Below, piece by piece: positions 20,128-41,602 of a DNA stretch of 64,000 nucleotides. The notes below the pieces were generated by a model. The model ran no database searches, was not told where the DNA came from, and saw nothing but the letters and a program-made list of their open reading frames with translations. The stretch spans positions 124,001-188,000 of the forward strand of contig JAAWEK010000007.1 in NCBI GenBank assembly GCA_022794265.1, given 5' to 3'. The position numbers and the translations under genes were made by a program. This DNA is from Lachnospiraceae bacterium (GTDB lineage Bacteria; Bacillota; Clostridia; Lachnospirales; Lachnospiraceae). Position 1 is the stretch's first letter. Each line of letters begins with the position of its first letter.

Positions 20128-20215
20128 CTACTACATTAATTGAAATGAAAAAATTTAATGGAGTATTTTAAAATTCATTTCAATAAGAAATACAAAAATG
20201 GAAAGGATGAAAGCA

Positions 20216-22972
20216 ATGTTTAAAGGAAAAAGCAAACAAAGCGGAAAGAAAAAAATTGCATTTCTGTTATCTGCCACAACATTGTTATCAACTGTCTTTG
20301 TCGGATGGCAGAGATTTGATAATCCTAATGTTTATGCAGGTCCGGCAGATGAAGAAAAGACCTATTATTTTGCTGAAGGTTTTGGAACAGGAGTTGATTT
20401 TTCAGAAGATAACTGGAAGATTAATACAGCCTTCCGAAGCGGCACACCGGATTCTATTTTAAATAATCCAGTGAAATATGCAGCAATTGTTGAAAACGAA
20501 CATTCAGGAGACAACGAAAAAATCATAAGACTGATTAATGGTGTCCGTGGAGCGGATTTAAACAGAACAGATACCGATTACCGTGTGGGTACGGCCCTTG
20601 TGAAAGACAGGGTATCTTTGAAAGACAGCAGTGAATTTTCTGCGAAATTTACCATATCCATGCCGGATGCATGTGTAAATATGGCACAGACAGGCGGCAC
20701 ACAGTTTGCAAGAGAAGTGGGAGGCGACGGAATAGCGTTTATTATTACACCTACTGAAACGATTAATGGACAGGCCGGTGCCGGTATGGGCTATTATGGA
20801 GTAAAAGACAGTCTGGTTATAGAAATGGATTCTTATTTTAACGGTGCTTACTGTACCTTTGAGTCATCAGGTACCGCATATGTTAACTGGGCATATGATA
20901 ATCAGATTTTTGCAAATCGAAGTCTTGGCTATTTACAGGCTTTGGCTGACGATACAAGAAATAAAGGTCTTGATTATGACTGGGCCGACGGAAGTTATTG
21001 GACATATTTAAATAATCAGGGATATGAACAGCTTCCTGCCAGTCAGACCAGGAGATTTGATCATGTGGGGGTTATGCTGGACGGCGTAACCAGAAATCAT
21101 ATCGGAATTTCTTATTTGAACGGAGTGCAGCCGGATGTGGTGGTAAACGGAAGATATGAAAATATCAATAATCCGTCAGCAAGTACTCCAAGCAGTTCCA
21201 AGGATTGTGCCACACGTTTTGCCGATGCAGGTGACATAAATGTGACAGGCGAAGAAGTGGACAACAGACTGTTTACATTCTGGATTGAATATGATGGAGA
21301 AAACCTGTATGTCAGATATGCAAACGGAAACTTTACTGAAGCAGTAAGACCGGCAGATCCTCAGATTGAACTGGAAGGTATGTTCCAGCTTGCCCATAAA
21401 TTTGCAAATGATGATGTTCAGATTGGGTTTACATCATCCATCGGTTCATCAAAAGCAAACCATACGGTACATAGCGTAGCATTTGCCAATAAATATTTTG
21501 AAAACGGAATCCAGACAGAATATACAGAAAAGTATTATGTTGAGAATCCGGATGCCACAGCAGATTTTATTACTGTAAATTCAAAGAAATATGTTCTGAC
21601 AGACAGTGCGGTTGTGGAAAATGTCGATATAGGTTCTGAGGCTGAAATCAGGGATAAATCTAATGAAGCAAAGTATCAGCCGTATATTAAAAAAGATTAT
21701 TCCGCCAATCCGTTATATCCAGATTCCACAACAGCCGTGAAAGGCGACGGTACCACGGTTTTGTATCAGTTCTATGACTTACCATCCTATAAGGTTGAAT
21801 ATTATCTGGAAAAAGAAGCTGGTACAGCAGGAGCCGTACAGGTAGGCGATAAATATTATGTAAAAGAAGAAGCGCTTATAAAAACTGCTACAGGCGGAAG
21901 CAGTGTTGTCAGCAATCAGAATACCGACAAAAAAGCCGGTGTAACGGTTAATGGTACGGCAGCAGCAGATACTTATAAGAGTTATACGGATTATGAATTT
22001 AATCCTGGAGCAACCCGGACAGCAGGACACGCCGAAGGTACGGTAGCAAAAGATAATTCTCTGGTAATACAGTTATACTATGACAAGAAGACAGAACAGA
22101 GAACAGAATATAAAGAACAGTACTGGGTGGAAGATCCTGAAGCAGACCGTGATTTTGTTGAAATAGAAGTAAATGGGGAAGTTAAGAAGTTTGTTTTGAA
22201 AGAAACAAATGATGTTACGGATGTAAATATCGGTATCGGTGCAACCGTTACGGATAAGTCAGAAAACTATGAAAATTATGATTTGGTGGAAGTTGAGATA
22301 CCGGGTTATCCGTCTTCTGTGGGCCAGATAAATCCGGATGGAACTACTATTGTACATCAGATTTATGTATTGAAGCCGACTTATCAGATTGAATACTGGC
22401 TGGAAGTTCCGGAAGCAACAGAGGATGCGATTGAAGTAGACGGAAAGTATTATGTGATTAAGTCTGAAGAGACAATGAATAAATATGCTTCAGCCGGAAC
22501 CGGAATTATCTCATCTGAAAATGCAAACGGTGCCGGTGTAAAAGCGAATGATACGGATGTGGAAGATACCTTTAAGCAGTTTACCGGATATGTATATAAC
22601 CAGACGGCAACTGACGCTCATGGAAAGAATATCGGTGATGTTACTCCGGACAACAGCCTTGTAATCAGACTGTTATATGATTTGGAAGAGGAACCGGAAG
22701 AGCCGACCACACCAGAGGAAACAACCACACCGGAGGAAACAACTACACCAGAAGAAATAACTACAACGGAGGAGCCGACTACACCAGAAGAAATAACCAC
22801 AACAGAAGAACCTGCAACTCCGGAAGTTACCACACCAGAACCAACTACAAAGAAAGAGCCGGAACCAACAAAGACCGGAGACAGTATGAATATGACATTT
22901 GTTATGCTTCTGCTGCTTTCAGGCTGTACGGTATTTGTAGTAATCATAAGTAAAAGAAAACATAATGATTAA
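20216..22972 (+). CDS. Cell-surface protein with L-type lectin domain and tandem repeats
   Basis: 918 residues. A signal peptide (KKKIAFLLSATTLLST) leads into a bacterial L-type lectin-like domain (about 35-430) with GDGIAFIITP, DSLVIEMDSYFNG and HVGVMLDG, the usual sugar- and calcium-binding strands. Two tandem units of about 195 residues follow (about 435-625 and 630-825); each starts with TEYxExYxVExP and ends DNSLVIxLxYD. A Thr/Glu/Pro-rich stalk (about 830-880) comes next, then PTKTGD, a hydrophobic helix and a basic tail. The tail resembles a sortase signal but lacks a perfect LPxTG. The ATG at 20216 was chosen because GAAAGG lies 9 bases before it. Probably a glycan-binding adhesin. 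Confidence 0.85.
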   Translation: MFKGKSKQSGKKKIAFLLSATTLLSTVFVGWQRFDNPNVYAGPADEEKTYYFAEGFGTGVDFSEDNWKINTAFRSGTPDSILNNPVKYAAIVENEHSGDNEKIIRLINGVRGADLNRTDTDYRVGTALVKDRVSLKDSSEFSAKFTISMPDACVNMAQTGGTQFAREVGGDGIAFIITPTETINGQAGAGMGYYGVKDSLVIEMDSYFNGAYCTFESSGTAYVNWAYDNQIFANRSLGYLQALADDTRNKGLDYDWADGSYWTYLNNQGYEQLPASQTRRFDHVGVMLDGVTRNHIGISYLNGVQPDVVVNGRYENINNPSASTPSSSKDCATRFADAGDINVTGEEVDNRLFTFWIEYDGENLYVRYANGNFTEAVRPADPQIELEGMFQLAHKFANDDVQIGFTSSIGSSKANHTVHSVAFANKYFENGIQTEYTEKYYVENPDATADFITVNSKKYVLTDSAVVENVDIGSEAEIRDKSNEAKYQPYIKKDYSANPLYPDSTTAVKGDGTTVLYQFYDLPSYKVEYYLEKEAGTAGAVQVGDKYYVKEEALIKTATGGSSVVSNQNTDKKAGVTVNGTAAADTYKSYTDYEFNPGATRTAGHAEGTVAKDNSLVIQLYYDKKTEQRTEYKEQYWVEDPEADRDFVEIEVNGEVKKFVLKETNDVTDVNIGIGATVTDKSENYENYDLVEVEIPGYPSSVGQINPDGTTIVHQIYVLKPTYQIEYWLEVPEATEDAIEVDGKYYVIKSEETMNKYASAGTGIISSENANGAGVKANDTDVEDTFKQFTGYVYNQTATDAHGKNIGDVTPDNSLVIRLLYDLEEEPEEPTTPEETTTPEETTTPEEITTTEEPTTPEEITTTEEPATPEVTTPEPTTKKEPEPTKTGDSMNMTFVMLLLLSGCTVFVVIISKRKHND

Positions 22973-27092: not shown

Positions 27093-28286
27093 ATGTTAGT
27101 ACAGTTTATGTTGAAAAATGTTTTATCTTTTAAAGAAGAAACAATATTAGATTTGACAGCAATTAATGCATATAAAGAACATCAGTGTAATTTAATAGAT
27201 ATTGGAACAAAAGAAAAGTTTTTAAGGGTTGCGGCAATCTATGGAGCGAATGCAAGTGGTAAATCAAATTTAAATATCGCAATGCAGTTGTTTCAGTTAA
27301 TTATTAAGGAATCGTTTAATAATGCAGATAAAGATGGCAGGGTTGCAATTGAAAAATATTATCATCCGTTCCGGTTTGATAATAATGACGAAAATTCGGA
27401 ATTTCAGATTGTAGAAATTATAGGAGAATATGAATATAAATATGGATTTGAGTACAATTCGGAAAGTATTGTTAGTGAATGGATGTATCGTAAAAATATA
27501 AATACAAAAAGAAATACTGTAATTTTAGAAAGGATGGGTAACGCGATTCAGTTGGGTGCGTCTGTTCGAAAAGAATGTGAAGTGTATCAGGAGCAAATTC
27601 CTACGGAAACACTGGCTTTATCTTTTTTTAATAAATTAAATTTAAAAACAGACATTTTTAATGTAATGTATAATGGGATAATGGATACACTCGTGGCAGA
27701 TGCGGATTTTTATGAGGATTCAAAAATAATTGATACTTTTCTACCGGAAGTTATTAATGAAGAAAAAGAAAAATTACTTAATTTTTTGGAAGCAATTGAT
27801 ACAGGAATTAAGGATATTCAGTACATGAAAGATGGAGATGAATTTAAGTTTCTGACTACTCATTTAGGAAAAGATGAAAAGAGATATAATATTAATTTAT
27901 ATGATGAGTCAGCAGGGACAGTGAAAAGTATCATTATATATATGTATGCAAGAGTGGCTATTGTGATGAATGCATCAATGTTTATTGATGAATTGAATGT
28001 AAAATTACATCCGTTGTTACTAAAGTTTATTGTTGATTTATTTTATGAAAATAATACCACTGCACAATTGATTTATACTACACATGATACAACATTGATG
28101 GATAAAAAGTTTTTTAGAAGAGATCAAATCTGGTTTGTTCAGAAAGATGAATATGGATATTCAGAATTGTCAGCATTGTCGGATTTTAAAGTCAGATCAG
28201 ATGCTTCCTTTGAAAAGGATTATCTGGCCGGTGTATATGGAGGAATACCATTTCTTAAGGAGTTTGATATGAAAGAAGGTGAATAG
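27093..28286 (+). CDS. AbiLi/RloA-like AAA-type ATPase
   Basis: 397 residues. The N-terminus MLVQFMLKNVLSFKEE is typical of overcoming-lysogenization/RloA-type ATPases (COG1106, AAA_15/AAA_21). Walker A is YGANASGKSNL, Walker B MFIDELNVKLHP and the His switch TTHDTTLMD, giving an ABC-like SMC-style ATPase. In AbiL of lactococci and Rlo loci elsewhere this ATPase is paired with a RloB nuclease-like protein, and a broken RloB gene follows here immediately. ATG 27093 lies behind AAAGGAGGTG. Many ATA and AGA codons and low G+C compared with nifJ suggest acquisition by transfer. The reading frame itself is intact. Confidence 0.85.
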   Translation: MLVQFMLKNVLSFKEETILDLTAINAYKEHQCNLIDIGTKEKFLRVAAIYGANASGKSNLNIAMQLFQLIIKESFNNADKDGRVAIEKYYHPFRFDNNDENSEFQIVEIIGEYEYKYGFEYNSESIVSEWMYRKNINTKRNTVILERMGNAIQLGASVRKECEVYQEQIPTETLALSFFNKLNLKTDIFNVMYNGIMDTLVADADFYEDSKIIDTFLPEVINEEKEKLLNFLEAIDTGIKDIQYMKDGDEFKFLTTHLGKDEKRYNINLYDESAGTVKSIIIYMYARVAIVMNASMFIDELNVKLHPLLLKFIVDLFYENNTTAQLIYTTHDTTLMDKKFFRRDQIWFVQKDEYGYSELSALSDFKVRSDASFEKDYLAGVYGGIPFLKEFDMKEGE

Positions 28287-28734
28287 ATGGGGTCAGATGA
28301 TTTATTTAAAAAACGAAGAAAAGCGAGAAAGCAAAGGTAGCACGAATACAAAATTCCGAAAGCAAATTCATTTTTAATAGTAACGGAAGGTAAATGTACG
28401 GAACCTTTATACTTTAAAGGACTCCAAAAACTGATTAAAACAAAAAATTGCCTGGAGTAATCAGTCTTTTGAATATTGGTTATATTTACACTTTTATTAT
28501 AGTGATTCTGCGCTTCATAGGGAGGAATGGAGCGTAAAGTTAGATGAAATTTTTAAAGAATATAATTTAGGAGACGGTACTTATCAAAAGAATTATAAAG
28601 ATATTTACAATATGGTAAATAGTTATAATGGGGTTAATATTGCGATAAAAAATGCAAAACGAAGAATGGCGGATTTTGAAAAGAGGGAGGGAAACCATCC
28701 GAATATAATCCAGGTACAACAGTGTATAAATTAG
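28287..28734 (+). pseudogene. Decayed RloB/AbiLii-like gene
   Basis: Starting at the ATG 28287, right after the ATPase stop, the frame reads MGSDDLFKKRRKARKQR, hits TAG, then continues in the same frame as EYKIPKANSFLIVTEGKCTE and PLYFKGLQKLIK, the RloB N-terminal signature, before another stop. After this the C-terminal RloB part is recognisable (NQSFEYWLYLHFYYSD, then about 80 residues to TAG at 28734). The central part that should hold the TOPRIM-like acidic motif is missing. An in-frame nonsense codon plus an internal deletion make this a pseudogene. Confidence 0.75.
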
Positions 28735-28782
28735 TGGAAAAATTAAAAAATTATTTAAATGAATAAATATATAATATAAAAA

Positions 28783-28827
28783 AATATCGCATAAGCGACA
28801 ACTCTCGCTTATGCGGTATTTTTTTAT
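28783..28827. terminator. Bidirectional terminator between RloB remnant and XRE gene
   Basis: Stem ATATCGCATAAGCGA / TCGCTTATGCGGTAT, A-rich on the left and T-rich on the right, so it can serve both converging units. Confidence 0.85.
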
Positions 28828-29180
28828 TATCTTTTTTTGGCGTCTGTTAATTGGTCCAATTCTCTTAATATTCTGTGTATATGATGTAGCTGTTCGGGAG
28901 TAAAAGTTTCCAGCAGCATAATAATATCTGTTACTTCTGAAATACATTCAATGGACGGATAGACGGTATGGTCAAATTCATTAAAAAGTTCAGAAAATGT
29001 AATGCCCAGTGCAGAGGCAATGTTTTCTAAAATAGAGAGGGTAGGATTTCTCTGACCGCGTTCAATCTGTCCAATATAGTTAGTGGTAATGTCGGCGGCC
29101 TCGGCCAGTTCTTCCTGACTGATGCCTTTTTCGGTCCGGATGTATTTAATCCGTTTTCCGATGATTTCGTTTAATTTCAT
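28827..29180 (-). CDS. XRE family transcriptional regulator
   Basis: 117 residues. A lambda-repressor-like helix-turn-helix occupies about 6-60 (GKRIKYIRTEKGISQEEL, then TNYIGQIERGQRNPTL), followed by a short helical C-terminus, which may be a dimerisation part. The ATG at 29180 follows AGGTGAAC; an upstream in-frame ATG at 29231 would lie inside the first operator-like repeat. It is divergent from the surface-protein cluster, and three near-identical 15-base repeats lie in the shared intergenic region, so it most likely represses that cluster and itself. This is inferred from position. Confidence 0.88.
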   Translation of the reverse strand: MKLNEIIGKRIKYIRTEKGISQEELAEAADITTNYIGQIERGQRNPTLSILENIASALGITFSELFNEFDHTVYPSIECISEVTDIIMLLETFTPEQLHHIHRILRELDQLTDAKKR

Positions 29181-29231
29181 TTGTAAGTTCACCTCTGATA
29201 AAATTGTATGATAGGGTGGAAAAACAAACAA

Positions 29232-29306
29232 GATAACTATAATATGTTAAAAGACAAATATGATAACTATAGTATTGACATTTTGTAAAAAAATAACTAT
29301 AATAGT
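29232..29306. promoter_or_regulatory. Three operator-like repeats at 30-base spacing
   Basis: Repeats at 29232-29246, 29262-29276 and 29292-29306, each containing ATAACTATA(A/G)TA. The period is exactly 30 bases, close to three helical turns. The second contains the perfect palindrome ACTATAGT and the third ACTAT-A-ATAGT. The second touches the -35 box and the third covers the -10 box of the rightward promoter. Confidence 0.8.
29275..29303 (+). promoter_or_regulatory. Consensus promoter of the surface-protein cluster
   Basis: TTGACA (29275-29280), 17-base spacer and TATAAT (29298-29303): a perfect sigma-A consensus, overlapped by two of the three operator-like repeats. Confidence 0.85.
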
Positions 29307-29335
29307 AAAAAATTATAAGAAAATGGAGGAAGGAT

Positions 29336-30835
29336 ATGGGAAAAGTGGTGTTAAAAAAGATATTGGGCAAAAAATGGGAAATGTATAGGATAATGAAAAA
29401 GGCAGTGGCATTATTAATATCCGTAGTTATGATAATAGTGAATATTAATAATGAAATGATTATGGGCTTTGCGGAGGATTCTGCAGAAGCAGTTGTGAAT
29501 ATTGGGGATAGGTTTACTGTTGAAGGATTGGAATATGAAGTTATTGGAGATGAGGAAGTAGCAGTAATCAGGTTAGAGGATCAGAATATAACGGATTTAG
29601 TTATTCCGGAAAAAGTTGCTTATGATGAAAGGAAATTTGGAGTGACGGATATAAAGATTTATGCATTTGACAATTGTAGTAGTTTAACAAGTATAATGAT
29701 ACCAGACAGTATAATAAATGTAGATGGTTATGATGTATTTTGTCGAGGGTGTAGTAATTTACAAGAAATAAATGTGTCAAAAAATAATCTTCAATATACA
29801 TCAGAAAATGGGGTGTTATTTGATAAAAATAAATCAAAGTTAATTCGTTATCCAGAAGGAAAAAAAGGAGAATATGAGATTCCAGAAGGAGTGACAACTA
29901 TAAGATATGCTTTCAATAATTGTGATAGTTTAACAAGTATAGTGATACCTGGTAGTATGATAGATATGGAAAATTATCCATTTAGCGGTTGTAGTAATTT
30001 AAATGAAATAAAGGTATCAGATGAAAATGAAGAATATACGTCAGAAAAGGGAGTTTTGTTTAATAAAGATAAAACTATATTAATTAAATTTCCAGCGAAA
30101 AAAAAAGGAGAATATAAAATACCAAAAGGAGTGACATTCATAGGGCATATAGCATTTGAAGATTGTAGCAATTTAACAGATGTAGTAGTACCAGATAGTG
30201 TGATGACCATAGGGGATATGGCATTTTGTAACTGTATTAATTTAACAAGTATAATAATACCAGATAGTGTGACAACTATATCAATGTATATTGAACCTTA
30301 TCTAATATTTCATGGTTGTAATAATTTAACTATCTACAGCACCGAAAATTCTTATGCCCATTCTTTTGCATTAGAATATGAAATACCATGGGCGCCATTA
30401 ACAGCTATTATACCTGTGACCATCAAAATATTAGAAGGTAAAGATATGCAATACAGTGGCTCTGGGGATTACATTCTTCGTTTAGATAAAGAATCGGACA
30501 AGTTTATTGATGTATTAATGGATGGTATACCTGTTGACCCAGCAAATTATACAGTTACAGAAGGTTTAACCATTATTGCATTTTTTGAGAATTATTTAAG
30601 AACACTTCAAGAAGGTGAACATATAATCAAAGTGAATTTTAATAACGGTTATGCAGATACTACGTTGACAATTTTATCATCAGAGTTGCAATCAAATAAG
30701 GAGTTAGCAATTTCTGAAAATAATAAGGTAGCAGCAAAAACTGGTGATGGTATTCCTCACATTCTATTGGGAGTCTTGTTTGCAAGTGCAGCAACAGTCG
30801 GAATTGTATATGCAAAGAAAAGAATATCAAATTAA
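29336..30835 (+). CDS. BspA-type leucine-rich-repeat surface protein with sortase-like tail
   Basis: 499 residues. A hydrophobic signal segment (KKAVALLISVVMIIVNI) starts about 20 residues in. A small domain (RFTVEGLEYEVIGDEEVAVI) leads into BspA-like LRR_5 repeats (about 85-350) with the pattern CSSLTSIMIPDSI. An Ig-like region follows (about 360-450), then KTGD, a hydrophobic helix and a Lys/Arg tail, consistent with sortase anchoring although there is no full LPxTG. The start at 29336 is favoured by GGAGGAAGG; the ATG at 29393 nearer the signal peptide lacks a good site. This is the first gene under the XRE-linked promoter. A role in host or microbe binding is inferred from the family. Confidence 0.85.
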   Translation: MGKVVLKKILGKKWEMYRIMKKAVALLISVVMIIVNINNEMIMGFAEDSAEAVVNIGDRFTVEGLEYEVIGDEEVAVIRLEDQNITDLVIPEKVAYDERKFGVTDIKIYAFDNCSSLTSIMIPDSIINVDGYDVFCRGCSNLQEINVSKNNLQYTSENGVLFDKNKSKLIRYPEGKKGEYEIPEGVTTIRYAFNNCDSLTSIVIPGSMIDMENYPFSGCSNLNEIKVSDENEEYTSEKGVLFNKDKTILIKFPAKKKGEYKIPKGVTFIGHIAFEDCSNLTDVVVPDSVMTIGDMAFCNCINLTSIIIPDSVTTISMYIEPYLIFHGCNNLTIYSTENSYAHSFALEYEIPWAPLTAIIPVTIKILEGKDMQYSGSGDYILRLDKESDKFIDVLMDGIPVDPANYTVTEGLTIIAFFENYLRTLQEGEHIIKVNFNNGYADTTLTILSSELQSNKELAISENNKVAAKTGDGIPHILLGVLFASAATVGIVYAKKRISN

Positions 30836-30917
30836 ACATCTTGTGGCTCAAACAGATAAGGTAAAGACGCAGTTCTTTCAATTTTTATAACTACAGAACG
30901 TTGACACAGTATGGTGT

Positions 30918-30941
30918 AATTATGTCTGTTAAAACATAATT
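30918..30941. promoter_or_regulatory. Dyad upstream of the second LRR gene
   Basis: AATTATGT (30918-30925) and ACATAATT (30934-30941) are exact inverted repeats 8 bases apart, with a TTGACA at 30901-30906 just upstream. This may be an operator or weak hairpin; no -10 at the ideal distance was found. Confidence 0.35.
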
Positions 30942-30995
30942 CCATCATATTGCTGTTTATATAAAGAATTAATATGGAAAACGGAGGAGAATTGT

Positions 30996-32843
30996 GTGAA
31001 AGAACGTCGGTTAAAAAAGAAAAACAAATTTTTATTATCACTGATAACAATAGAATTTCTTTTTATTCTGATAGTAGAATTATATGGAATAGTAAAGGCT
31101 TCTGATAAAATTGAATTAAAGATTGGGGATACGATATCAGTTGACGGATTAAACTATAAGATTACACAAAATGGGGAAGTAGAAGTTTCAGGTGTAACAA
31201 ATTCAGACATAACAGTAGTGAATATTCCTGATGTCTTTACATATAGGGGAAACAATTTAAGAGTAAAAAGTATTGGGAAAGGAGCATTTGGCGACTGCAG
31301 TGATTTGAAAAGTGTAGTCTTGCCAAATGGTCTGACAAGCATTGACGGCTATGCATTTTATAAATGCAGCAGTCTGCCCAATATTACAATACCCGAGAGC
31401 GTAACAAATATAGAATGGACAGCGTTTTATGGATGTAATGGTCTGGTAGAAATAAAAGTATCTGATAATAATCCGAATTATGTATCAGATAGTGGTGCTG
31501 TTTTTGATAAAAGGAAATTAAATTTACTTTATTTTTCAAAAGGAAGAAGCGGAGAATATGAAGTTCCCTTTGGTGTCAGGAGTATAAAAGCTTATGCTTT
31601 TTATGGATGTAAAAATTTAACCAGTATAAAAATACCGGAAAGTGTAGTTCTGATAGGGGAGCAGGCATTTTCCTGCTGTGGCAGTCTAAGTAGTATACTG
31701 ATACCAGAAAGCGTGACACGTATTGGAAGGTTAGCATTTAATGAATGTAATAATCTGGTTATTTATAGTACGGATAAAGCTTATGCTCATGCATGTGCAA
31801 CAAAAAATAAGATAAAATGGAGTCCTTCTGTTGAGTTGTCTGAAACTGGTATTTTCTTGGAATATCATAATTGTATTTATGATGGTACATATAAAACACC
31901 TTCCATAACTGTGAAAGACGGAAATAAAAATCTGATATTAGATACAGATTATACAGTGTCTTATGAAAATAATATCAGTGCCGGAACAGCTTTAATTACT
32001 GTTACAGGAAAAAGGATTTTAGGAACTGTTACAAAAGAATTTGTTATAGAGGCGAAATCTTTCAGTGATGTTAAGGCAGAGCTGGCAGCCAGATATTATT
32101 CTTATAACGGGAAACCCATAACACCGGAAATTACTGTAAATGATAATGGAAAATTATTGGTTAAGGATGTAGATTATACACTTTTGTATGAAAATAATAA
32201 ATCAATTGGAACAGCCACGGTTACCATTACAGGGAAAGGAAATTATAAGGGAAGTAAAAAATTAACATTTACAATTAGTCTGCCGAAAATTGAATCTTTT
32301 CGGCAGTCAACCGTATATTCTTCAACAAGCATTAAGATGACATGGCAAAGCATTCCCGATATAGAGGGATATGCAGTATATCGTGGAACCAGTCAGAATG
32401 GAGATTATTGGCTGTTAAAAACAGTCACTGCAAATTTCTATACCGATTTAGGGTTGGAAGCAGGAAAGGAATATTATTATAAAGTGCGGGCTTACAAAAC
32501 CGTAAATGGGAAGAAAGTCTATGGAGCGTACACTGATAGTTTGTGTATGGTTACCAAACCTAAGAGTCCGGCCGGAGTAATTCTAAAGGCCGGAAATCAA
32601 AAGGCAAGGGTAGTTTGGGAAAAGTCTGCAGGAGCAGACGGATATGAAGTACATATGTCACATTTTGAGTATGGAATTTACATGAATATGAAAAACCGGA
32701 ATGCTGATACATTATCTTATACACAGGAAAATCTTATAACAGGGAGGACATATTATTTTAAGATAAAGGCATATAAACTGAACGGAAACGGTGAGAAGGT
32801 GTATTCAGATTGGAGCAGTATAGAATTGGTTACAGTGAAATAG
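30996..32843 (+). CDS. Exported BspA-type LRR protein with Ig-like and Fn3 domains
   Basis: 615 residues from a GTG start 7 bases after GGAGGA. Signal peptide at about 9-35. BspA-like LRRs (about 80-270) are followed by two MBG/YDG-type Ig-like domains (DTDYTVSYENNISAGTALIT; DVDYTLLYENNKSIGTATVT) and two fibronectin type III-like domains, the first ending KAYKTVNGKKVYGAY. There is no sortase signal or other anchor at the C-terminus, so retention would need another mechanism. Together with the next two genes (gaps of 23 and 20 bases) it forms a compact operon. The C-terminal block is closely related to those of the proteins at 32867, 34837 and 41603. Confidence 0.87.
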   Translation: MKERRLKKKNKFLLSLITIEFLFILIVELYGIVKASDKIELKIGDTISVDGLNYKITQNGEVEVSGVTNSDITVVNIPDVFTYRGNNLRVKSIGKGAFGDCSDLKSVVLPNGLTSIDGYAFYKCSSLPNITIPESVTNIEWTAFYGCNGLVEIKVSDNNPNYVSDSGAVFDKRKLNLLYFSKGRSGEYEVPFGVRSIKAYAFYGCKNLTSIKIPESVVLIGEQAFSCCGSLSSILIPESVTRIGRLAFNECNNLVIYSTDKAYAHACATKNKIKWSPSVELSETGIFLEYHNCIYDGTYKTPSITVKDGNKNLILDTDYTVSYENNISAGTALITVTGKRILGTVTKEFVIEAKSFSDVKAELAARYYSYNGKPITPEITVNDNGKLLVKDVDYTLLYENNKSIGTATVTITGKGNYKGSKKLTFTISLPKIESFRQSTVYSSTSIKMTWQSIPDIEGYAVYRGTSQNGDYWLLKTVTANFYTDLGLEAGKEYYYKVRAYKTVNGKKVYGAYTDSLCMVTKPKSPAGVILKAGNQKARVVWEKSAGADGYEVHMSHFEYGIYMNMKNRNADTLSYTQENLITGRTYYFKIKAYKLNGNGEKVYSDWSSIELVTVK

Positions 32844-32866
32844 AAAAATTGGAGGAGCATAGTTGT

Positions 32867-34816
32867 ATGAATATAATAAAAAAAGTAGTTACAGTATTTT
32901 TGTTTGTAATTATGATGATGACAATGTCTGTTATGGTTTTTGCAGATACGGAGGTTACATTTCATTTTTATAATGCAAGAAACTGGGAAAATGTTGGTGG
33001 TTGGATTTATGAAGGAACCTCTTTTAATAAGAATGTTTCACCAACGGATCAGTCAGTGCTTAATGCTTCCGGAGGGGTATTATGGCCGGGGGCAAAGTGT
33101 GAAGATGAGGGAAACGGATGGTTTAAAGTTACGGCTAAGTTTACATCTAAGGAATCCGGTGCAGTGCTTATTTTTAATAACTGGACTGCAGGTAGTGAAA
33201 TTAATGATACTGCTACACAGGAAGATTTAAATCAGTTAGCAGAGGCAGGCGTACGCTTAGAGTCAGAGGCGATAGAACAGTCACCGAATATTTATATTGG
33301 TAGATATGTTGCATTTAATGCTGCTGAGTACTGGATTTCGTGGGATGGTATGTCAACAACGTTGATTGCAGAAGAGGGAAACGGTTTGGCAAAGACAGCT
33401 CCGCTTGTTTATAGTGAGAAATGGAAATGCTTTTCAGTTGAAAAACTGATATATAGAGTTATTGGAGATGGAGAAGTAGAAGTAGAGGACACTGTTGGAA
33501 CAGAGTTAAAAGAAATTAATATTCCAGAGAGTATTTCGTATGTGGGAAAAAAATGGAAGGTGACAGGTATAGGGAGTGGTGCCTTTAGGAACTGTAATAG
33601 TTTAAAGAGTATAAAGATACCGGATACTGTAACAAGTATAGGCCATTGTGCATTTCAGGAGTGCAGAAACCTGACAGGATTAACAATACCGGAAAAAGTA
33701 ATAAAGATAGGTTGTAAGGCATTTGATAGTTGTAGCAGTTTAAAGAGTATAAAGATACCAAAAGGTGTGGTTTGTGTAGAGCGTGAAGTATTTAATGGGT
33801 GTAATAGTTTAAGCAATGTAACAATAGCAGAAAATGTGACAAAAATATCGGAGTATGCCTTTAATAAATGTAGTAATTTGAGGAGTATAACTATACCGGA
33901 AAGCGTAATAAAAATATCGTGGAATACGTTTAATAAATGTAGCAATTTGGTAATATGTAGTACAGATAGAGCATATGCTCATACATATGCGATAGAAAAT
34001 AATATAAAGTGGAGTATAAAACCTAAGGCAATCAGCAGCACAAAAGGAAAATTATCCGCAACCGCCTATACCTATAACGGAACAGCCAAAACTCCGTCCG
34101 TGACCATAACCGATAATGGTAAAACTTTGAAAAAGAATACAGATTACACTGTATCTTATATAAATAATAATTCCATCGGCACAGCCTCAGTTACTGTAAC
34201 AGGAAAAGGAAATTATACAGGAATAAAAACATTAACCTTTAAAATCAATCCGGCAAAGACTACATCTTTGAAGCAGTCAGCAACCTATACATCTGCAAGC
34301 ATAAAGATGTCCTGGGCAAAAGTAGCAGGGGCAGCCGGATACGAAGTATACCGATCAGATTCTAAAAACGGAACCTATAAACTGTTAAAAACCGTAACTA
34401 CAAATTCCTGGACCAATTCCGGCTTAAAAGCAGGAAGTAAATATTACTATAAAGTACGGGCTTACAAAACTGTCAATGGCAAAAAGGTTTATGGAGCATA
34501 TTCTGATGTCAAAAGCATGATTACCAAGCCGTCCGCTCCACCAAAGGTCTCTGCAATTGCAGGTAGTCAGCAGGCAAAGATAACTTGGGGAAAATCATCG
34601 GGAGCCAATGGATATGAAGTGTATATGTCAACTTCTAAAAAAGGAACCTATCAGAAGATAAAAACTGTAAATTTATCAACCGTGAGTTATACAAAGACCG
34701 GATTAAAAAAGGGTCAGAAGTATTATTTTAAGGTAAGAGCATATAAAACAACCGGAACAGGAAGCAAGGTATACTCTGGGTGGAGCAGTATAAAATCAAT
34801 TGTATTAAATAAATAA
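32867..34816 (+). CDS. Exported LRR protein with N-terminal starch-binding-like module
   Basis: 649 residues. Signal peptide at 1-26. Residues 28-175 look like a family 26 carbohydrate-binding (starch-binding) module: VTFHFYNARNWENVGGWIYE, WPGAKCEDEGNGWFKVTAKF, and a repeat-like GRYVAFNAAEYWISWDG. BspA-type LRRs follow (about 215-390), then one MBG-like Ig domain and two Fn3-like domains (to 649). No membrane anchor is visible. ATG 32867 sits 9 bases after GGAGGAG. The combination suggests a secreted or wall-associated protein that binds alpha-glucan or another polysaccharide. Confidence 0.85.
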   Translation: MNIIKKVVTVFLFVIMMMTMSVMVFADTEVTFHFYNARNWENVGGWIYEGTSFNKNVSPTDQSVLNASGGVLWPGAKCEDEGNGWFKVTAKFTSKESGAVLIFNNWTAGSEINDTATQEDLNQLAEAGVRLESEAIEQSPNIYIGRYVAFNAAEYWISWDGMSTTLIAEEGNGLAKTAPLVYSEKWKCFSVEKLIYRVIGDGEVEVEDTVGTELKEINIPESISYVGKKWKVTGIGSGAFRNCNSLKSIKIPDTVTSIGHCAFQECRNLTGLTIPEKVIKIGCKAFDSCSSLKSIKIPKGVVCVEREVFNGCNSLSNVTIAENVTKISEYAFNKCSNLRSITIPESVIKISWNTFNKCSNLVICSTDRAYAHTYAIENNIKWSIKPKAISSTKGKLSATAYTYNGTAKTPSVTITDNGKTLKKNTDYTVSYINNNSIGTASVTVTGKGNYTGIKTLTFKINPAKTTSLKQSATYTSASIKMSWAKVAGAAGYEVYRSDSKNGTYKLLKTVTTNSWTNSGLKAGSKYYYKVRAYKTVNGKKVYGAYSDVKSMITKPSAPPKVSAIAGSQQAKITWGKSSGANGYEVYMSTSKKGTYQKIKTVNLSTVSYTKTGLKKGQKYYFKVRAYKTTGTGSKVYSGWSSIKSIVLNK

Positions 34817-34836
34817 AAACAAAGGAAAGGATTAAT

Positions 34837-37065
34837 ATGAAACAACAGTTATCAAAAAAAGAACATTTTATTTTATTGATACAAAAGATAACAATTTTTT
34901 TACTTTTGATGATAATAACCGAAATATTATTTCAAAGTATAGCAGAAGCAGCAGAGAAATCAAAGCCAAAGGAAGGAGAAAAATTTACAGTTGTAGAAAC
35001 AGAATATTATGGCAAAGACAATGCTGGTAATTCTGTACATGCAACAGGAAATCCGTCCTCATCCAGTCAAAAAAACAAAGCAATCAACAGTATAAAAGCC
35101 AGACTGGCAGCCACAGTCTATTCCTATAACGGAGTTCCCAGAACTCCGGCAGTAATTATAACTGATAATGGGAAAACATTAAAAAAGGGTACTGATTATA
35201 CTGTATCCTATAAAGATAATATAAATGCGGGGACGGCTAAAGTAATCATAAAAGGTAAAGGAATCTACACAGGAACGGTTACCAGAACATTTACCATAAA
35301 GCCAAAGGCCGTCAGCGGTATAAAAATCAGATTGGCCGCCACTACATATTCCTATAATGGAACTTCCAAAACGCCTGCCGTCAAAATAACACATAATAAA
35401 AATACACTAAAAAAGGATACCGATTATACGATATCTTATAAAAATAACAAAGAAATTGGAACCGCTACAGTTACAATTACCGGAAAAGGAAATTACACTG
35501 GAATGAGAACTTTAACCTTTAAAATTAATCCGGCAAGAGTAACATCTTTTAAGCAGTCAGCAGTATATTCTACTTCAACAATAAAAATGTCCTGGAAAAA
35601 GGTATCAGGAGCCGCCGGGTATGTAGTATACCGGGGAACGTCAAAAGGAGGAACCTACAAGCTGTTAAAGACAGTTACCACAAATTCTTGCAGCAATGCC
35701 GGTTTAAAAGCAGGAAGTAAATATTATTACAAGGTTCGTGCGTATAAAACAGTAAACGGTAAGAAAGTATATGGTGATTATTCGGAAAGTATAGGTATGA
35801 GTACTAAACCGGCAGCGCCTGCAAATCTATCTTTGGCTGCAGAAGGGACGAAGGTAAAGATAAGCTGGACGAGAGCTCAGGGACCAGCCGGATATGAAGT
35901 GTATATGTCTGCCAGCAGGGATACGGGATATAAAACCATTCAGACAGTAAACCCATCGGTTAATGGTATTGTTAAGAATGGGTTTGAAAAAGGGAAGAAG
36001 TATTATTTTAAGATTCGTGCATATGCAACATTAGCAGATGGAACAAAGATATATTCCGGATACAGTAGTGTAAAATCCATTACAATAGAAAAACCAATAG
36101 AAATAGAATGGGAAACGGAAGAGGAAGAAGAGGAGGGATTAACTGCAAAAGGATTATTAAATTACTGTAAAAATGCGGTAAAGAATAATGTACAGTATGT
36201 TTATGGCTGCAAAATGGAAATTTTAACTGCAAGTAAATATCAAATGCTGAGAAATATGTATGGTCCCAGTATGGTAATGAATATGGATAAAGCAAAAATC
36301 GGTAAAATGTGCTGCGACTGTTCCGGTTTAATCAGTAGCTATACTGGTATTCTTCGAAATTCTGCCCATTACTATGATCTGGCAACAGAACGGGCCACTA
36401 TCAGTCAGTTAAAAGCAAACTGGCAGAAATATGTGGGCTGGGCAATCTGGATGAGGGGACATATTGGTATTGTGTCTGATACAGAAGGCTATTATTATGC
36501 CATGGATGGAAGCGCCAGAAATGCAGCTCATCTGCCGATTGAAATGTGGGACTGGAAGTGTGTGATAAAGCTCAGTGATATAAAATATGGTTCCGGGGAA
36601 TTCACAGTAAAACAAAATCCAACTGTTAATCCTGTAAAATCGGATATAAACGTATATTATCAGGTATATGCGAATTCAAAATGGTATGGAGAGGTAAAGA
36701 ATTACAGTAATACTGTCTCTTCCGGCGGATTTGCCGGAGTGGAGGGAAAACCGGTGCATTGTATTATGGCAAGACTGAGCCGGGGGAAAATAAAGAGCCG
36801 GGTACATATAACAGGCGGTGACTGGTCGGACTGGGTGGATGGTTATGATTCCTCTGACCCCTACAACGGATATGCAGGGAAGGGAAATAAAGAAATAGAC
36901 GGTGTACAGTTCTGTTTAGAGGGATTGGAGGATTATGATGTATATTACAGGGTATCTACAACAGCCTCTACGGATTATCTTCCCTGGGTGAGAAATGCGG
37001 AGGATTATGCGGGGGTATATGGAAGACAGATTGATAAGGTGCAGATATGTATCAGCAAAAAGTAA
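34837..37065 (+). CDS. Exported NlpC/P60-like hydrolase with Ig, Fn3 and ChW-like domains
   Basis: 742 residues. Signal peptide at about 10-38. Two MBG-like Ig domains (about 85-245) and two Fn3-like domains (about 250-430) are followed by an acidic linker (EEEEEE-rich) and a papain-like amidase domain (about 440-590). The catalytic Cys is probably in CCDCSGLISSYTG and the His in MRGHIGIVSDTEG. The last 140 residues (VYYQVYANSKWYGEVKN, WSDWVDGYDSSDPYNGYAG, IDGVQFCLEGL) match clostridial hydrophobic-Trp (ChW)-type repeats, which may attach it to the cell wall. It may cleave peptidoglycan peptides. Neither function nor anchoring is proven. Confidence 0.82.
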   Translation: MKQQLSKKEHFILLIQKITIFLLLMIITEILFQSIAEAAEKSKPKEGEKFTVVETEYYGKDNAGNSVHATGNPSSSSQKNKAINSIKARLAATVYSYNGVPRTPAVIITDNGKTLKKGTDYTVSYKDNINAGTAKVIIKGKGIYTGTVTRTFTIKPKAVSGIKIRLAATTYSYNGTSKTPAVKITHNKNTLKKDTDYTISYKNNKEIGTATVTITGKGNYTGMRTLTFKINPARVTSFKQSAVYSTSTIKMSWKKVSGAAGYVVYRGTSKGGTYKLLKTVTTNSCSNAGLKAGSKYYYKVRAYKTVNGKKVYGDYSESIGMSTKPAAPANLSLAAEGTKVKISWTRAQGPAGYEVYMSASRDTGYKTIQTVNPSVNGIVKNGFEKGKKYYFKIRAYATLADGTKIYSGYSSVKSITIEKPIEIEWETEEEEEEGLTAKGLLNYCKNAVKNNVQYVYGCKMEILTASKYQMLRNMYGPSMVMNMDKAKIGKMCCDCSGLISSYTGILRNSAHYYDLATERATISQLKANWQKYVGWAIWMRGHIGIVSDTEGYYYAMDGSARNAAHLPIEMWDWKCVIKLSDIKYGSGEFTVKQNPTVNPVKSDINVYYQVYANSKWYGEVKNYSNTVSSGGFAGVEGKPVHCIMARLSRGKIKSRVHITGGDWSDWVDGYDSSDPYNGYAGKGNKEIDGVQFCLEGLEDYDVYYRVSTTASTDYLPWVRNAEDYAGVYGRQIDKVQICISKK

Positions 37066-37160
37066 TAAAAGCTATTATTTAAATGATAGCGTAATATGAA
37101 TTTTGTCTCTGGAGAGGGGCAATAAAAAATACTACGATTGAATAAAGAGAGGTTAGATTT

Positions 37161-39938
37161 ATGAAGAAAATTCTGGCAGTGATGATGGCGGCGGTTCTGG
37201 CTGTGGTGGGAACGGTACCTGCCATGACTGCACGGGCAGGGGATTCAGATGAGAATTATGATGTTACGAAACCGGTGATTAATTCCATTGAAATTGATAA
37301 GCAAGGGGAAACACTGACTGTAGGGGATACGGTAACAATTTATGTTGATGCTTATGATGTGGGGGTTGGAATTGATTATGTAGAAATAATGTTGTGGTGG
37401 GAAAATAAATCTGGTGGTAGTGAAAGATTATATTGGAATGAAAATGTAATGAAATATGAGAGAGTTATCGACATAGATTCTAATTCTTCAGCAGGAAAAT
37501 ATTATATAACCGGTGTTTTGGCAAAAGATATTAATGGCAATTATATGGAAAAAGATGTATTTTATTGGTACAATGTTGAAAGAGACGATATAAAAGATAA
37601 AGAAGCACCTGTGGTGGAATCGATTCATCTGACAAAAAATGGAATTGATATAAGTCCAGGTGATGTATTTTCTAAGGGAGATATAATACATATATCAATA
37701 AAAGCAATAGATAATGTGGAATTAGCTAATACTGCTGAAATAAACTTTAGACTGATTGATAAGTTGGAAGGTTATTATTCTCAATATGATTATAAATATA
37801 TACGTTTACCCTATTTAGAAGATACTCAATGCTATGAAGGGAGTTTTGAAATTAATGACTGGCTCTATCCTGGAACATGGAAATTGTCAGATGTTGATGT
37901 CGAGGATACTTCTAAAAATAGAACATGCTTAGCAAATTCAAAAGATAAAATAATGGATATAGAGTTTAAAATACAGAATGATGACTTTGATACAGAACCG
38001 CCAATACTTCACTCTTTTTCTATAGATAGGGCAGGAGAGTTTGTACGTTCCGGAGATTGTGTAAAAATAACAGCAGAAATAACAGATAACAGAGGAATAA
38101 ATTATGCAAGAGCCAATTTATGTAAATTAATAGGAATTGATGAATTTGAGGGTGTAATTTATTTAGAACAAATTGGTGATACGAATATCTATGAAGGAAT
38201 TTTTGAGATTAAGGATAATACAGATCCTTGTGAATGGTATTTACACAGTATAGAGATAGATGATAGCAGTCGTAATTGCAGAGATTATTTCAATTCTGAT
38301 ATGAATCAATGTGTATATGTAGTTCAGGGAAAAGATACATTTGTAAATCCAACTTATAAAGTTGATTTAAGATATGAAGAAAACGGTCAATCGCATACAA
38401 AAAAGCTTGAAGTTCCGCGCAGAACCACAGCAAAAGAACTGGCTCAATACTTTACACCACAAAATTCAAAATTTATAGGCTGGGATGTACCTGGTTATGG
38501 TGTGTTGGACAATGGATCAATTTACGCCCTGTATGACGAAACTCTGGAAGACCCCTCCAATTGCGATGAAACAGAATCTACAGAAGAAACCACATCAGAA
38601 AAAACCACGTTAGAGGAAGCTGCGTCAGAAGAAACAACTTTAGAGGAAACAACATCAAACGAAGCCGACAATACAGAGGAAATAATTAATAAGGGTGATA
38701 TATTTACAATCGGAGAATTACAATACAGGGTTATAGAAAACGGAGAAGTGAGTGTCTATAGTACGCTGAATAAAATGATAATAGATATAAACATTCCCAA
38801 AATGGTTATTTATGGTGGAAAAGAGTGGAAGGTAATCAATATAGGAAGTTCTGCATTGAAAAATTGTAATAATCTGATTCGTATCACGATACCGGAAGGC
38901 ATAACCAGTATTGAAGATTCTGCCTTTAAGAATTGTAAAAGTCTGACAGATATAAAGATACCGGAAGGAGTAACCAGTATAGGTAATTCTGCCTTTAAAA
39001 ATTGTAAAAACCTGGCTGGTGTAACAATACCGGAAAGTGTTATAAGTATTGCAGATGATGCATTTACTAATACAGCGGCAGTCATCTATAGCACGGATAA
39101 TGCATATGCCCGTACATATGCGAAAGAACATAAACTGGAATGGAAGTCTTTAAAAACTGAAGAACCAACCAATACAGAAGATATCCCATCGGACGAATCT
39201 GGCAGTATGGAAGAAACCGCTCCAATGGAATCAGACGATGCTGAAGAAGAAACAACAATGGAAATACCAACAGCCTCTGCTGTTTTATCAGAGCAGCAGA
39301 TTGTAGAAGCCGTTTCAAAAGTAACAGCAACAGAAGCCGGTTCCACCATTAAAATCTCCATGGGCAGGGCGACCGTAGTGCCAAAGGATATTTTAGAAGC
39401 AGCAAGAGGAAAAGATGTGAATATTGTTCTTGAAATGGAGGGTTATACCTGGACAATCAACGGAACCACCGTTTTAAGCAAAAATCTGGAGGATATCAAT
39501 CTGGAAGTAACCAGGCATACCAATTATATTCCAAACAGAATCGTATCTGCTTTAGCGGGCAGTAATCCGGTAGAACAGATTTCACTTACTCATAACGGTC
39601 ATTTTGGTTTTACAGCGAATCTGACCCTGAATGTTGGTAATCAGTATGCCGGACAGGATGGGAATCTTTATTACTATGACAGCGACGGAAAAATGGTATT
39701 TATAAACGCAGGCACCATAGACAACAACGGAAATGTTTCATTAGCCTTCAGTCATGCTTCTGATTATGCGATTGTAATTACCAAAAAACAAGTATCGGTT
39801 ATGGATGGAACAGATACAGCGACATTACCTGAAACAGGTGATACAGTTCCAATGAAATTGTTCGCTCTGCTGGTAGTTTCTGTTGGAACAATCGTCTTCG
39901 TTAACATCATGGGAAAGAAGAATAAAATTAAACAATAA
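37161..39938 (+). CDS. LPETG-anchored surface protein with Ig-like repeats and LRRs
   Basis: 925 residues. Signal peptide at 1-26. Three Ig-like repeats of about 110 residues (starting PVINSIEIDKQGE, PVVESIHLTKNGI and PILHSFSIDRAGE) are followed by a small domain ending in YALYDE, a Thr/Glu-rich spacer, four BspA-type LRRs (about 560-660), a second Glu-rich spacer and a beta-rich domain (about 710-885). The tail is LPETGD, a hydrophobic helix and a basic end, a canonical sortase signal. It is the only protein in the cluster with a perfect LPxTG. It follows the amidase-like gene after 95 bases behind AGAGAGG. Confidence 0.88.
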   Translation: MKKILAVMMAAVLAVVGTVPAMTARAGDSDENYDVTKPVINSIEIDKQGETLTVGDTVTIYVDAYDVGVGIDYVEIMLWWENKSGGSERLYWNENVMKYERVIDIDSNSSAGKYYITGVLAKDINGNYMEKDVFYWYNVERDDIKDKEAPVVESIHLTKNGIDISPGDVFSKGDIIHISIKAIDNVELANTAEINFRLIDKLEGYYSQYDYKYIRLPYLEDTQCYEGSFEINDWLYPGTWKLSDVDVEDTSKNRTCLANSKDKIMDIEFKIQNDDFDTEPPILHSFSIDRAGEFVRSGDCVKITAEITDNRGINYARANLCKLIGIDEFEGVIYLEQIGDTNIYEGIFEIKDNTDPCEWYLHSIEIDDSSRNCRDYFNSDMNQCVYVVQGKDTFVNPTYKVDLRYEENGQSHTKKLEVPRRTTAKELAQYFTPQNSKFIGWDVPGYGVLDNGSIYALYDETLEDPSNCDETESTEETTSEKTTLEEAASEETTLEETTSNEADNTEEIINKGDIFTIGELQYRVIENGEVSVYSTLNKMIIDINIPKMVIYGGKEWKVINIGSSALKNCNNLIRITIPEGITSIEDSAFKNCKSLTDIKIPEGVTSIGNSAFKNCKNLAGVTIPESVISIADDAFTNTAAVIYSTDNAYARTYAKEHKLEWKSLKTEEPTNTEDIPSDESGSMEETAPMESDDAEEETTMEIPTASAVLSEQQIVEAVSKVTATEAGSTIKISMGRATVVPKDILEAARGKDVNIVLEMEGYTWTINGTTVLSKNLEDINLEVTRHTNYIPNRIVSALAGSNPVEQISLTHNGHFGFTANLTLNVGNQYAGQDGNLYYYDSDGKMVFINAGTIDNNGNVSLAFSHASDYAIVITKKQVSVMDGTDTATLPETGDTVPMKLFALLVVSVGTIVFVNIMGKKNKIKQ

Positions 39939-39997
39939 TACATTTATGATTATACAGGAAATAAAGAAAATGTTATAGACATATCAAAATCTTGAAC

Positions 39998-40043
39998 AAG
40001 ATGTGGCTGCTGCACGAATGAAACCGTGCAGCAGCCATATCTT
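39998..40043. terminator. Strong hairpin between surface gene and Rpn remnant
   Basis: TGGCTGCTGCACG / CGTGCAGCAGCCA, extended by AAGAT/ATCTT, with an 8-base loop. No long T tract on either side, but its position between convergent units fits a terminator. Confidence 0.65.
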
Positions 40044-40045
40044 AT

Positions 40046-40427
40046 TTAAGACAAAATATCTGTGTCCTTTAAATATTTTTTTGCTTCCTTTTCCGTCAAA
40101 TGGAATTTATCCTGTATCTTTTTTAAATCACGTCTTCCGGTAAATCTAAATCCCGGTACATAGAAATTGCGCAATATATTTTTCCTTTTTGTAGACCCTT
40201 CTTCATACCTTTTTCCACATTTTCCTGATCACGCATTAACAGTGTCATATATTCATGTCTCTATTCTCTATTTTGCTTTGCCTCCTTTACCGCATCATCT
40301 AATTTTTTATAAAAGAATCCTCAGGTTTTTTGTCTGCTACATAGTCAAGAAATGCTTTTAATTCCTTACTGATATCATTCAGCCATCCATTTGTATTCAA
40401 AAATATCTTTGTTATACCATCACCCAT
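40046..40427 (-). pseudogene. Remnant of an Rpn/PD-(D/E)XK transposase-like nuclease
   Basis: The gap between the LPETG gene and the next gene contains a degraded leftward gene. Reading from 40427: MGDGITKIFLNTNGWLND and ISKELKAFLDYVADKKPEDS, a frameshift, LDDAVKEAKQNRE, a stop, RHEYMTLLMRDQENVEKGMK, another frameshift and FHLTEKEAKKYLKDTDIL. This is the C-terminal half of Rpn family (PDDEXK_2) proteins, recombination-promoting nucleases common in gut Firmicutes. At least two frameshifts and one stop, with no N-terminal catalytic half. Confidence 0.75.
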
Positions 40428-40581
40428 ATAAAGAGAATTGTCTTATTTTATTTTGTATTATATTCCCCATTTTCCTCTTGTATTGTTTAAAAGCCATATT
40501 TATCCTGTTGGGGATTTCTTTACTATTATTCAACGAAAAACCAGTAATATTTCAATCAAATGTATACATTTTGTAAACGCA

Positions 40582-40610
40582 TTGTGATAGAAATATTAAT
40601 GTGATATAAT
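40582..40610 (+). promoter_or_regulatory. Promoter of the 251-residue unknown gene
   Basis: TTGTGA (40582-40587), 17-base spacer, TATAAT (40605-40610) with an extended TG. Confidence 0.75.
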
Positions 40611-40719
40611 AAAAGAAGCAAATAAATCAGATGACCTCGCATTGATATCAGCAGAAAAATGGACGGCTGAAAACCATATTATAAGAAAAGTATGTGATAC
40701 AAAAAAGGAGGCTGTGGCA

Positions 40720-41475: not shown

Positions 41476-41484
41476 AAAGAAATC

Positions 41485-41602
41485 ATGAAGAAATTATCAA
41501 AAGAAAGGAAAAATTGCAGAATGCCCTTTTTCAGACAGCAGAATATTTGCGTTTGATGGGGCAGTATCACAAAAATGTTTGCGATATGCAGGGTGTAATA
41601 TT
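41485..41602 (+). repeat. Structured leader repeat, copy B (before a surface protein)
   Basis: GAAAGG (41503-41508), TTGCA (41514-41518), TGCCC (41522-41526), GGGCA (41559-41563), ATCACAAA (41566-41573) pairing with TTTGCGAT (41578-41585, one mismatch), TGCA (41587-41590), then the start codon at 41603. An 11-codon frame starting ATGCCC (41521-41556) follows GAAAGG at a plausible distance. The second stem differs in sequence from copies A and C but still pairs. Confidence 0.7.

Follow-up and report, generated by a model that had tools for sequence, protein, structure and literature searches.

SinR/SlrR of Bacillus is an HTH_3 repressor of surface and matrix genes, and other small helix-turn-helix proteins related in fold have been described with well-defined operators. 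C.Csp231I is described as binding as two HTH dimers to sites separated by an 18-bp spacer, the length of which matters (PMC4321490). In Treponema denticola, TrtA (TDE_0127) is reported as a 104-residue XRE regulator of broad action, the loss of which lowers the expression of 153 genes and raises that of 38, and which is required, directly or not, for the expression of a BspA-type LRR protein (PMC12724145). A literature search, largely outside subscription journals, identified TrtA/BspA as the nearest described system and did not return a description of the regulator clade or of the operator discussed below; searches for the words ACTATAGT and AACTATAGTT yielded, among the matches listed, only unrelated ones.

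Here we describe a locus within a 64-kb stretch of DNA (hereafter, the window), in which the gene for a small XRE/HTH_3 protein faces a cluster of genes for LRR/Fn3 surface proteins across a short intergenic gap with three regularly spaced repeats. Very likely, this is a dedicated XRE repressor-operator module, and we assign a probability of roughly three in four (0.76) to the reading, predicted from the sequence, that the XRE protein acts at three operators to repress the surface-protein operon.

The three-site array and the genes on its two sides

The gap of 155 bp between the start of the regulator gene (29180, minus strand) and that of the first LRR gene (29336) contains, on the plus strand, three copies of a 12-base core of the form ATAACTATA(A/G)TA, with a pitch of exactly 30 bp (Table 1). 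The preliminary description had placed three 15-base repeats at 29232, 29262 and 29292, with a 30-bp period, the second abutting TTGACA and the third covering TATAAT of a consensus promoter (29275-29303); all of this was borne out, the 12-base cores beginning one base later. The TTGACA hexamer (29275-29280) directly follows the last base of core 2 and is separated by 17 bp from TATAAT (29298-29303), which lies within core 3; this promoter is the sole exact match to TTGACA-16/18-TATAAT in the 64 kb. In pairwise comparison, the cores are identical at 11, 11 and 12 of the 12 positions, and the 18-base spacers compared at 5 to 12 of 18. Site 2, ATAACTATAGTA, includes the palindrome ACTATAGT, and the possible promoter of the regulator gene (29289-29260) overlaps both this site and the plus-strand -35 element.

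Table 1. Features of the regulator, the array and the surface-protein cluster (window coordinates)
Feature	Position	Strand	Basis
Terminator-like hairpin, calls on both strands	28778..28825	.	between regulator end and upstream genes
XRE/HTH_3 regulator gene, 117 aa	28827..29180	-	ORF from ATG 29180; Pfam HTH_3, 66.9 bits
Candidate operator site 1, ATAACTATAATA	29233..29244	+	motif match
Possible regulator promoter, TTTACA-18-TATCAT (low confidence)	29260..29289	-	consensus scan alone, 10/12
Candidate operator site 2, ATAACTATAGTA, abutting -35	29263..29274	+	motif match
Consensus promoter, TTGACA-17-TATAAT, toward LRR gene	29275..29303	+	consensus scan, 12/12
Candidate operator site 3, ATAACTATAATA, -10 inside	29293..29304	+	motif match
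BspA-type LRR protein, 499 aa, first target (predicted)	29336..30835	+	ORF, Pfam
Four more LRR and/or Fn3 ORFs (starts 30996, 32810, 34837, 37161)	30996..39938	+	ORFs, Pfam

An arrangement of this kind is rarely obtained by chance: when the 155-bp gap was shuffled 20,000 times with dinucleotides preserved, a single shuffle gave a triple of even spacing in which 11 or more of the 12 bases matched, and none of 60 shuffles of the whole window gave a triple of array quality. Such triples occur at two further places of the window, 22709 and 52409, both of them within ORFs; they are in-frame short tandem repeats of 18 and 21 bp which, by eye, encode Thr/Glu/Pro-rich linkers of a surface protein and an amidase-like protein, respectively. 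Single sites with up to two mismatches number 27 in the window versus 18.5 expected, a count reached by 5 of 100 shuffles. The exact 12-mer occurs five times in the 2.88-Mb genome, with three of the copies in the array, and a reversed control pattern nine times, so it is the array that is unusual and not the single site. A genome-wide regulon was rejected given that 103 places match with at most one mismatch versus 256 for the reversed control; with no surplus of sites elsewhere in the genome, the regulator looks dedicated and local. A second XRE gene with a similar site (L335) was also discarded, that site falling inside a membrane-protein ORF.

The regulator is read here from ATG 29180; the longest ORF, of 134 aa, starts at TTG 29231, and the closest relative begins at the place matching ATG 29180 (MNLNELIG). 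Its Pfam HTH_3 score far exceeds the gathering cut-off of 23 (E 1.6e-18), which places the protein in the XRE/HTH_3 group, and Pfam detected no peptidase domain in it. The best PDB sequence matches are C.BclI (E 7.8e-12) and then SinR (E 5.1e-10). The score with the NCBIfam SlrR equivalog, 41.9 bits, is below the cut-off of 250; no curated NCBIfam cut-off was reached by the regulator or by the five relatives scanned, and PADLOC and PHROGs returned general HTH matches alone. Close relatives of the protein are rare: with the genome of origin included, matches at E 1e-13 are found in two of the nine genomes of the genus and matches at E 1e-16 in three of the 397 sampled genomes of the family. XRE matches from phage and plasmid collections are all less than 60% identical to it (the highest among those listed, 51.5% over 66 residues), and exact ATAACTATARTA was not found at six such loci (L053-L058). 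Near the regulators of two remoter family members (L040 and L041), AACTATARTA was not detected at one mismatch. Beyond the 3' end of the regulator gene, the segment 27087-28734 encodes an AAA_21 ATPase (Pfam) followed by pieces that by eye resemble an RloB-type protein; these pieces (28273-28734) lie in different frames, and this second gene seems broken.

On the opposite side of the array, Pfam LRR_5 and/or fn3 domains were identified in all five ORFs between 29336 and 39938. By eye, the 499-aa protein has a signal-like N-terminus and a C-terminus consisting of KTGD, a hydrophobic stretch and basic residues, and the four downstream ORFs likewise start with signal-like sequences. The products of 20198-22972, 29336-30835 and 37161-39938 all have KTGD or LPETGD near the end, and then a hydrophobic segment and a basic tail; these C-termini resemble, by eye, cell-wall sorting signals. 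The region 30700-41700 contains no terminator-like site on the plus strand; the five that were found are all on the minus strand, with 5.9 expected by chance, and the plus-strand sites called within 28700-31100 lie upstream, at 28778-28825. A promoter-like site with 10 of 12 matches is present inside a gene at 33386. Given this distribution of terminator-like sites, a single transcript is plausible, and the cluster 29336-39938 may plausibly be co-transcribed from the LRR promoter, in line with the read-through to several genes that had been proposed earlier.

Sites of the same type beside homologues of the regulator

The closest relative of the regulator, with 49% identity over 115 residues, is encoded in another genome of the same genus (G007; locus L007). 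About 100 bp upstream of its gene there is one exact ATAACTATAATA, in the same orientation as in the window, which covers the -10 element of TTGATT-16-TATAAT, a promoter directed away from the regulator; the exact 12-mer appeared in 28 of 20,000 shuffles of the 445-bp gap. Conservation of the array next to related regulators, the check put forward in the preliminary description, is partial here: the exact 12-mer stands beside the nearest relative, but it is a single site and neither the triple nor an LRR gene is present, the divergent ORF 445 bp off being SPFH-like by eye. Downstream of the site-bearing promoter, the stretch 1950-2180 of this locus contains no ORF longer than 33 aa on that strand and ends with a hairpin and a run of T; perhaps it is a small RNA.

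For a broader survey, we used a five-sequence model (A3) that gave 78 matches in 71 of the 397 family genomes. After one match with four stops (G248:C42) was left out, the remaining 77 together with L007 and L059 made up a first sample of 79 loci, in which 250 bp upstream were scanned; L078-L080 and L081-L093 are duplicates of other loci. Among the loci scoring above 100, ACTATA is present in 11 of 11 (3.1 in shuffles), or 10 of 10 when the window is excluded (2.8 in shuffles). The respective numbers are 8 of 13 (3.0) for scores of 80-100, 8 of 31 (6.6) for 70-80 and 8 of 24 (5.1) below 70. When sites are counted instead of loci, this most distant group has 14 versus 6.0, above every one of 200 shuffles (maximum 13), so the fall-off with distance is not clean.

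An unguided ranking of 8-mers in the 80-100 group put ACTATAGT on top (6 of 13 loci, 0.09 expected), followed by AACTATAG, TAACTATA and ATAACTAT. The same ranking for scores above 100, without the window, was headed by ATATACTA (9 of 10 loci, 0.36 expected), which indicates that the closest group carries mostly TACTATA-type sites; the 6- and 7-mer rankings of the group above 100 start with GGAGGA, a ribosome-binding word, and ACAGAC(T). The word TAACTATA of the window shows no enrichment in the remaining ten loci of the closest group (one site, 0.4 in shuffles).

The second sample, obtained with a wider model (A4) from 315 genomes of the order, consists of 21 further loci, including L308 that was retained despite having only 72 bp upstream; L288 and L079 duplicate L059 and the window. 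The evidence for ACTATA in this sample is mixed. By loci it is weak (9 of 21 versus 5.2 in shuffles, maximum 10), and by sites there are 18 versus 6.2, with a maximum of 13 in 200 shuffles; for scores above 100, ACTATA is found in 5 of 6 loci (1.7 in shuffles, maximum 5) and at 12 sites versus 1.9 (maximum 6). The 12 loci that lack ACTATA include L301, which has a recognition helix of the window's type. Two near-copies, L290 and L292, have three sites with the last one located 1-2 bases before TTGACA, much as in the window, and the ORF opposite L290 has, by eye, a signal peptide. Collectively, the enrichment of ACTATA near close homologues and the 12-mer of the nearest relative support the earlier suggestion that the repeats are operator-like elements for the adjacent regulator.

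Several other candidates were discarded. The 30-bp pair of cores occurs in five stretches of viral contigs, all of them tandem or simple repeats by eye, and CTATTGAYW-N17-TATACTATRA matched at least 120 times in the viral scan. The best match to the five-sequence model among 80 stretches (L168-L247) scored 51.5 bits; the CTATTGAYW pattern is thus too promoter-like to serve as a diagnostic. The other family genome with the spaced pair, G100, carries a 15-bp repeat.

Recognition helix, flanking base and neighbouring genes

According to how the recognition helix starts, 26 loci were divided, under a rule drawn up after inspection of the data, into an HxTY class (11 loci) and a [T/S/A][T/P]xY class (15 loci), to which the window belongs. 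ACTATA is preceded by T at 12 of the 18 HxTY sites and by A at 28 of the 38 sites of the other class, with the window included and palindromes scored on both strands (T versus any other base, Fisher p 0.002 by sites); with the majority base per locus and the window left out, T versus A gives p 0.0075. Broader classes were derived from the 88 of 100 loci with a helix readable by the rule, the window again excluded: with 18 and 56 loci, p is 0.05 by sites and 0.04 by loci, and when Tyr-x-Gly is required (12 and 37 loci), 0.02 and 0.04, respectively. Contrary to the rule, T precedes ACTATA at L103-L106, whose four regulators are nearly alike and have a TTNY helix. L159 is HxTY by eye, has no ACTATA and falls outside the class rule; its inclusion alters no p value. 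In the tree, the narrow classes lie on opposite sides of one branch (support 38/36), so shared descent may also explain the association. The link between helix and base, as suggested by these sequences, is a lead, and a weak one under the broader classes.

A promoter with at least 10 of 12 matches directed away from the regulator is present in 20 of the 26 classed loci, and in 18 of the 26, a count that had no shuffle control, there is a site that overlaps the -35 or the -10 element or is no more than a few bases away from it. The window, L095, L163 and L167 each have a 12/12 promoter with ACTATAAT over the -10; ACTATAAT contains TATAAT, so the overlap of site and -10 is partly built in. As target we took the closest divergent ORF that lies no more than 700 bp away and has 70 aa or more, and called it envelope-like if it had a hydrophobic N-terminal segment, a rule that misses L160 and L290, both clear by eye, and admits short hydrophobic ORFs. 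Envelope-like neighbours by this rule number 6 for the 11 HxTY loci, 6 for the 15 loci with the window's type of helix and 15 for the 74 remaining XRE loci (Fisher p 0.019); without the window, the numbers are 11 of 25 versus 15 of 74 (p 0.034).

Two sets of loci show recurrent layouts. Five HxTY loci (L059, L155, L158, L161 and L289, the last one from the second sample and repeating the layout of the class) share the upstream pattern CTATTGAYW-N17-TATACTAT, that is, a promoter with site-like words at -35 and over -10; the gene opposite codes for a CHAP protein at L059, for a secreted protein (by eye) at L155 and L158, and for a small membrane protein at L161. L163, L165, L166, L167 and L095, with helices of the TxxY[L/Y]G[Q/L] type, have pairs of ACTATA-type sites 23 to 25 bp apart, close to the regulator's own start codon and with the promoter directed away; the neighbour genes vary.

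These data would also fit an undescribed clade of short XRE repressors spread across the order as plug-in local switches, each with its own operator array. Targets in such a clade would often be secreted or envelope proteins, the arrays would sit on strong divergent promoters, and a code would tie the base next to ACTATA to the first helix residues (His or Thr/Ser). As the helix-base link weakens under the broader classes, we lowered our estimate and regard this combined proposal as doubtful. If the code holds, sites would be predictable from the protein sequence alone.

Mode of action and comparison with known systems

Under the reading that we favour, repression of the surface-protein operon, the 117-residue protein would bind the three ATAACTATARTA operators, probably with one dimer per site. 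Because sites 2 and 3 are located at the -35 and over the -10, protein bound there would block RNA polymerase and turn the LRR/Fn3 operon off; sites 1 and 2 are in the stretch from which transcription of the regulator gene must start, and through them the protein would probably restrain its own synthesis. It is the position of the sites that points to repression and not activation.

The pitch of the array had been taken to keep all three sites on one face of the helix, favouring cooperative binding and an on/off switch. Apart from the window itself, the 30-bp pitch does recur, being the commonest distance in the 11 HxTY loci, which do not include the window (seven pairs in six loci, shuffle mean 0.04), and C.Csp231I, which has two 15-bp sites 18 bp apart, is described as needing that spacer length (PMC4321490). 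However, 30 bp corresponds to 2.86 turns at 10.5 bp per turn, leaving successive sites ~51 degrees and the outer ones ~103 degrees out of register, so a shared face can only be approximate. Furthermore, in four of the seven HxTY pairs one site is at the -35 and the other at the -10 region of a promoter with a 17-bp spacer, so that promoter geometry accounts for those four but not for the other three; in the window's own helix class, without the window, the commonest distance is 25 bp (four pairs), followed by 23 (three) and 26 (two). Hence strict phasing is not supported, the distances in the window's own class being mostly 23-26 bp. A phasing function of the 30-bp spacing appears unlikely.

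The 12/12 promoter should need no activator, and its -10 is covered by a site, where bound protein would block polymerase. Both observations speak against the possibility that the same sites are bound with the effect of activating the promoter, or of both activating and repressing it depending on dose, as in C proteins; we consider this somewhat more improbable still. Site 2 does abut TTGACA, as activation would allow, and C proteins, which share the HTH_3 fold and include the best PDB match, are described as both activating and repressing (PMC3115060, PMC4041747). In addition, deletion of trtA in T. denticola is reported to lower BspA expression (PMC12724145), and because TrtA is needed there, we reduced the probability of repression to the value given above and raised that of activation.

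That the sites serve a different DNA-binding protein encoded in this genome is very unlikely: the genome encodes five matches to the regulator at E <= 0.001 and ACTATA-type motifs are short, but the motif is enriched beside close homologues in other genera, and the array holds three of the five exact genomic copies. Least probable of all is that the repeats are promoter-like AT-rich elements or remnants of a 30-bp tandem duplication that involve no regulator, because, although every copy holds a -10-like hexamer (TATAAT or TATAGT) and the stretches preceding copies 1 and 2 are partly alike (12/18), the promoter scan gave no plus-strand hit at copies 1 and 2, the bases 5' of the hexamer (ATAAC) are conserved as well whereas the compared spacers are for the most part different, and an exact 12-mer also accompanies the closest relative.

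If repression by the XRE protein is indeed how this locus works, a cluster of adhesin-like surface proteins would be under the control of a single small repressor that is encoded next to it and has a readable operator, the similar sites near homologues in several genera would allow prediction of locally switched genes, and the locus would offer a simple system to test the choice of DNA by the recognition helix.

Among the known systems, SinR resembles the regulator as its second PDB match, and the SinR operator probably differs from the window sites. By description, C.Csp231I and C.EcoO109I resemble the regulator in being small HTH proteins that carry a C-terminal extension and in having palindromic operators with a long spacer (PMC4321490, PMC3115060), which in C.Csp231I is 18 bp between 15-bp sites and here 18 bp between 12-bp cores. 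These proteins are described with CTAAG-N5-CTTAG, two operators and restriction genes, in contrast to the ACTATA-type sites, three operators and surface-protein operon of the window. C.AhdI, C.Esp1396I and C.BclI share ACT...AGT half-sites, present in GACTtatAGTC (PMC3115060) as well as in ACTATAGT, but differ in the distance between half-sites and in having operators almost side by side. The window sites, ATAACTATARTA, match neither of the C-protein operators as given in these sources, GACTtatAGTC (PMC3115060) or CTAAG-N5-CTTAG (PMC4321490), and Pfam identified no restriction-modification gene among the six neighbouring ORFs, which encode one AAA_21 ATPase and five LRR/Fn3 proteins. TrtA is similar, by description, in being a short XRE regulator that affects a BspA-type LRR surface protein, and dissimilar in its broad action, in that no operator was found for it and in that its loss is reported to lower expression, the opposite of the repression proposed here. 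Finally, the lambda-type OR region and that of S. aureus phage phi11 (PMC3991615) are described with three operators placed between the gene of a repressor and one that diverges from it. The window shows this layout as well, with the sites recognized by sequence only; the divergent gene here codes for a BspA-type LRR protein and not for a second repressor (Cro). Systems in which several operators serve one XRE regulator are well known.
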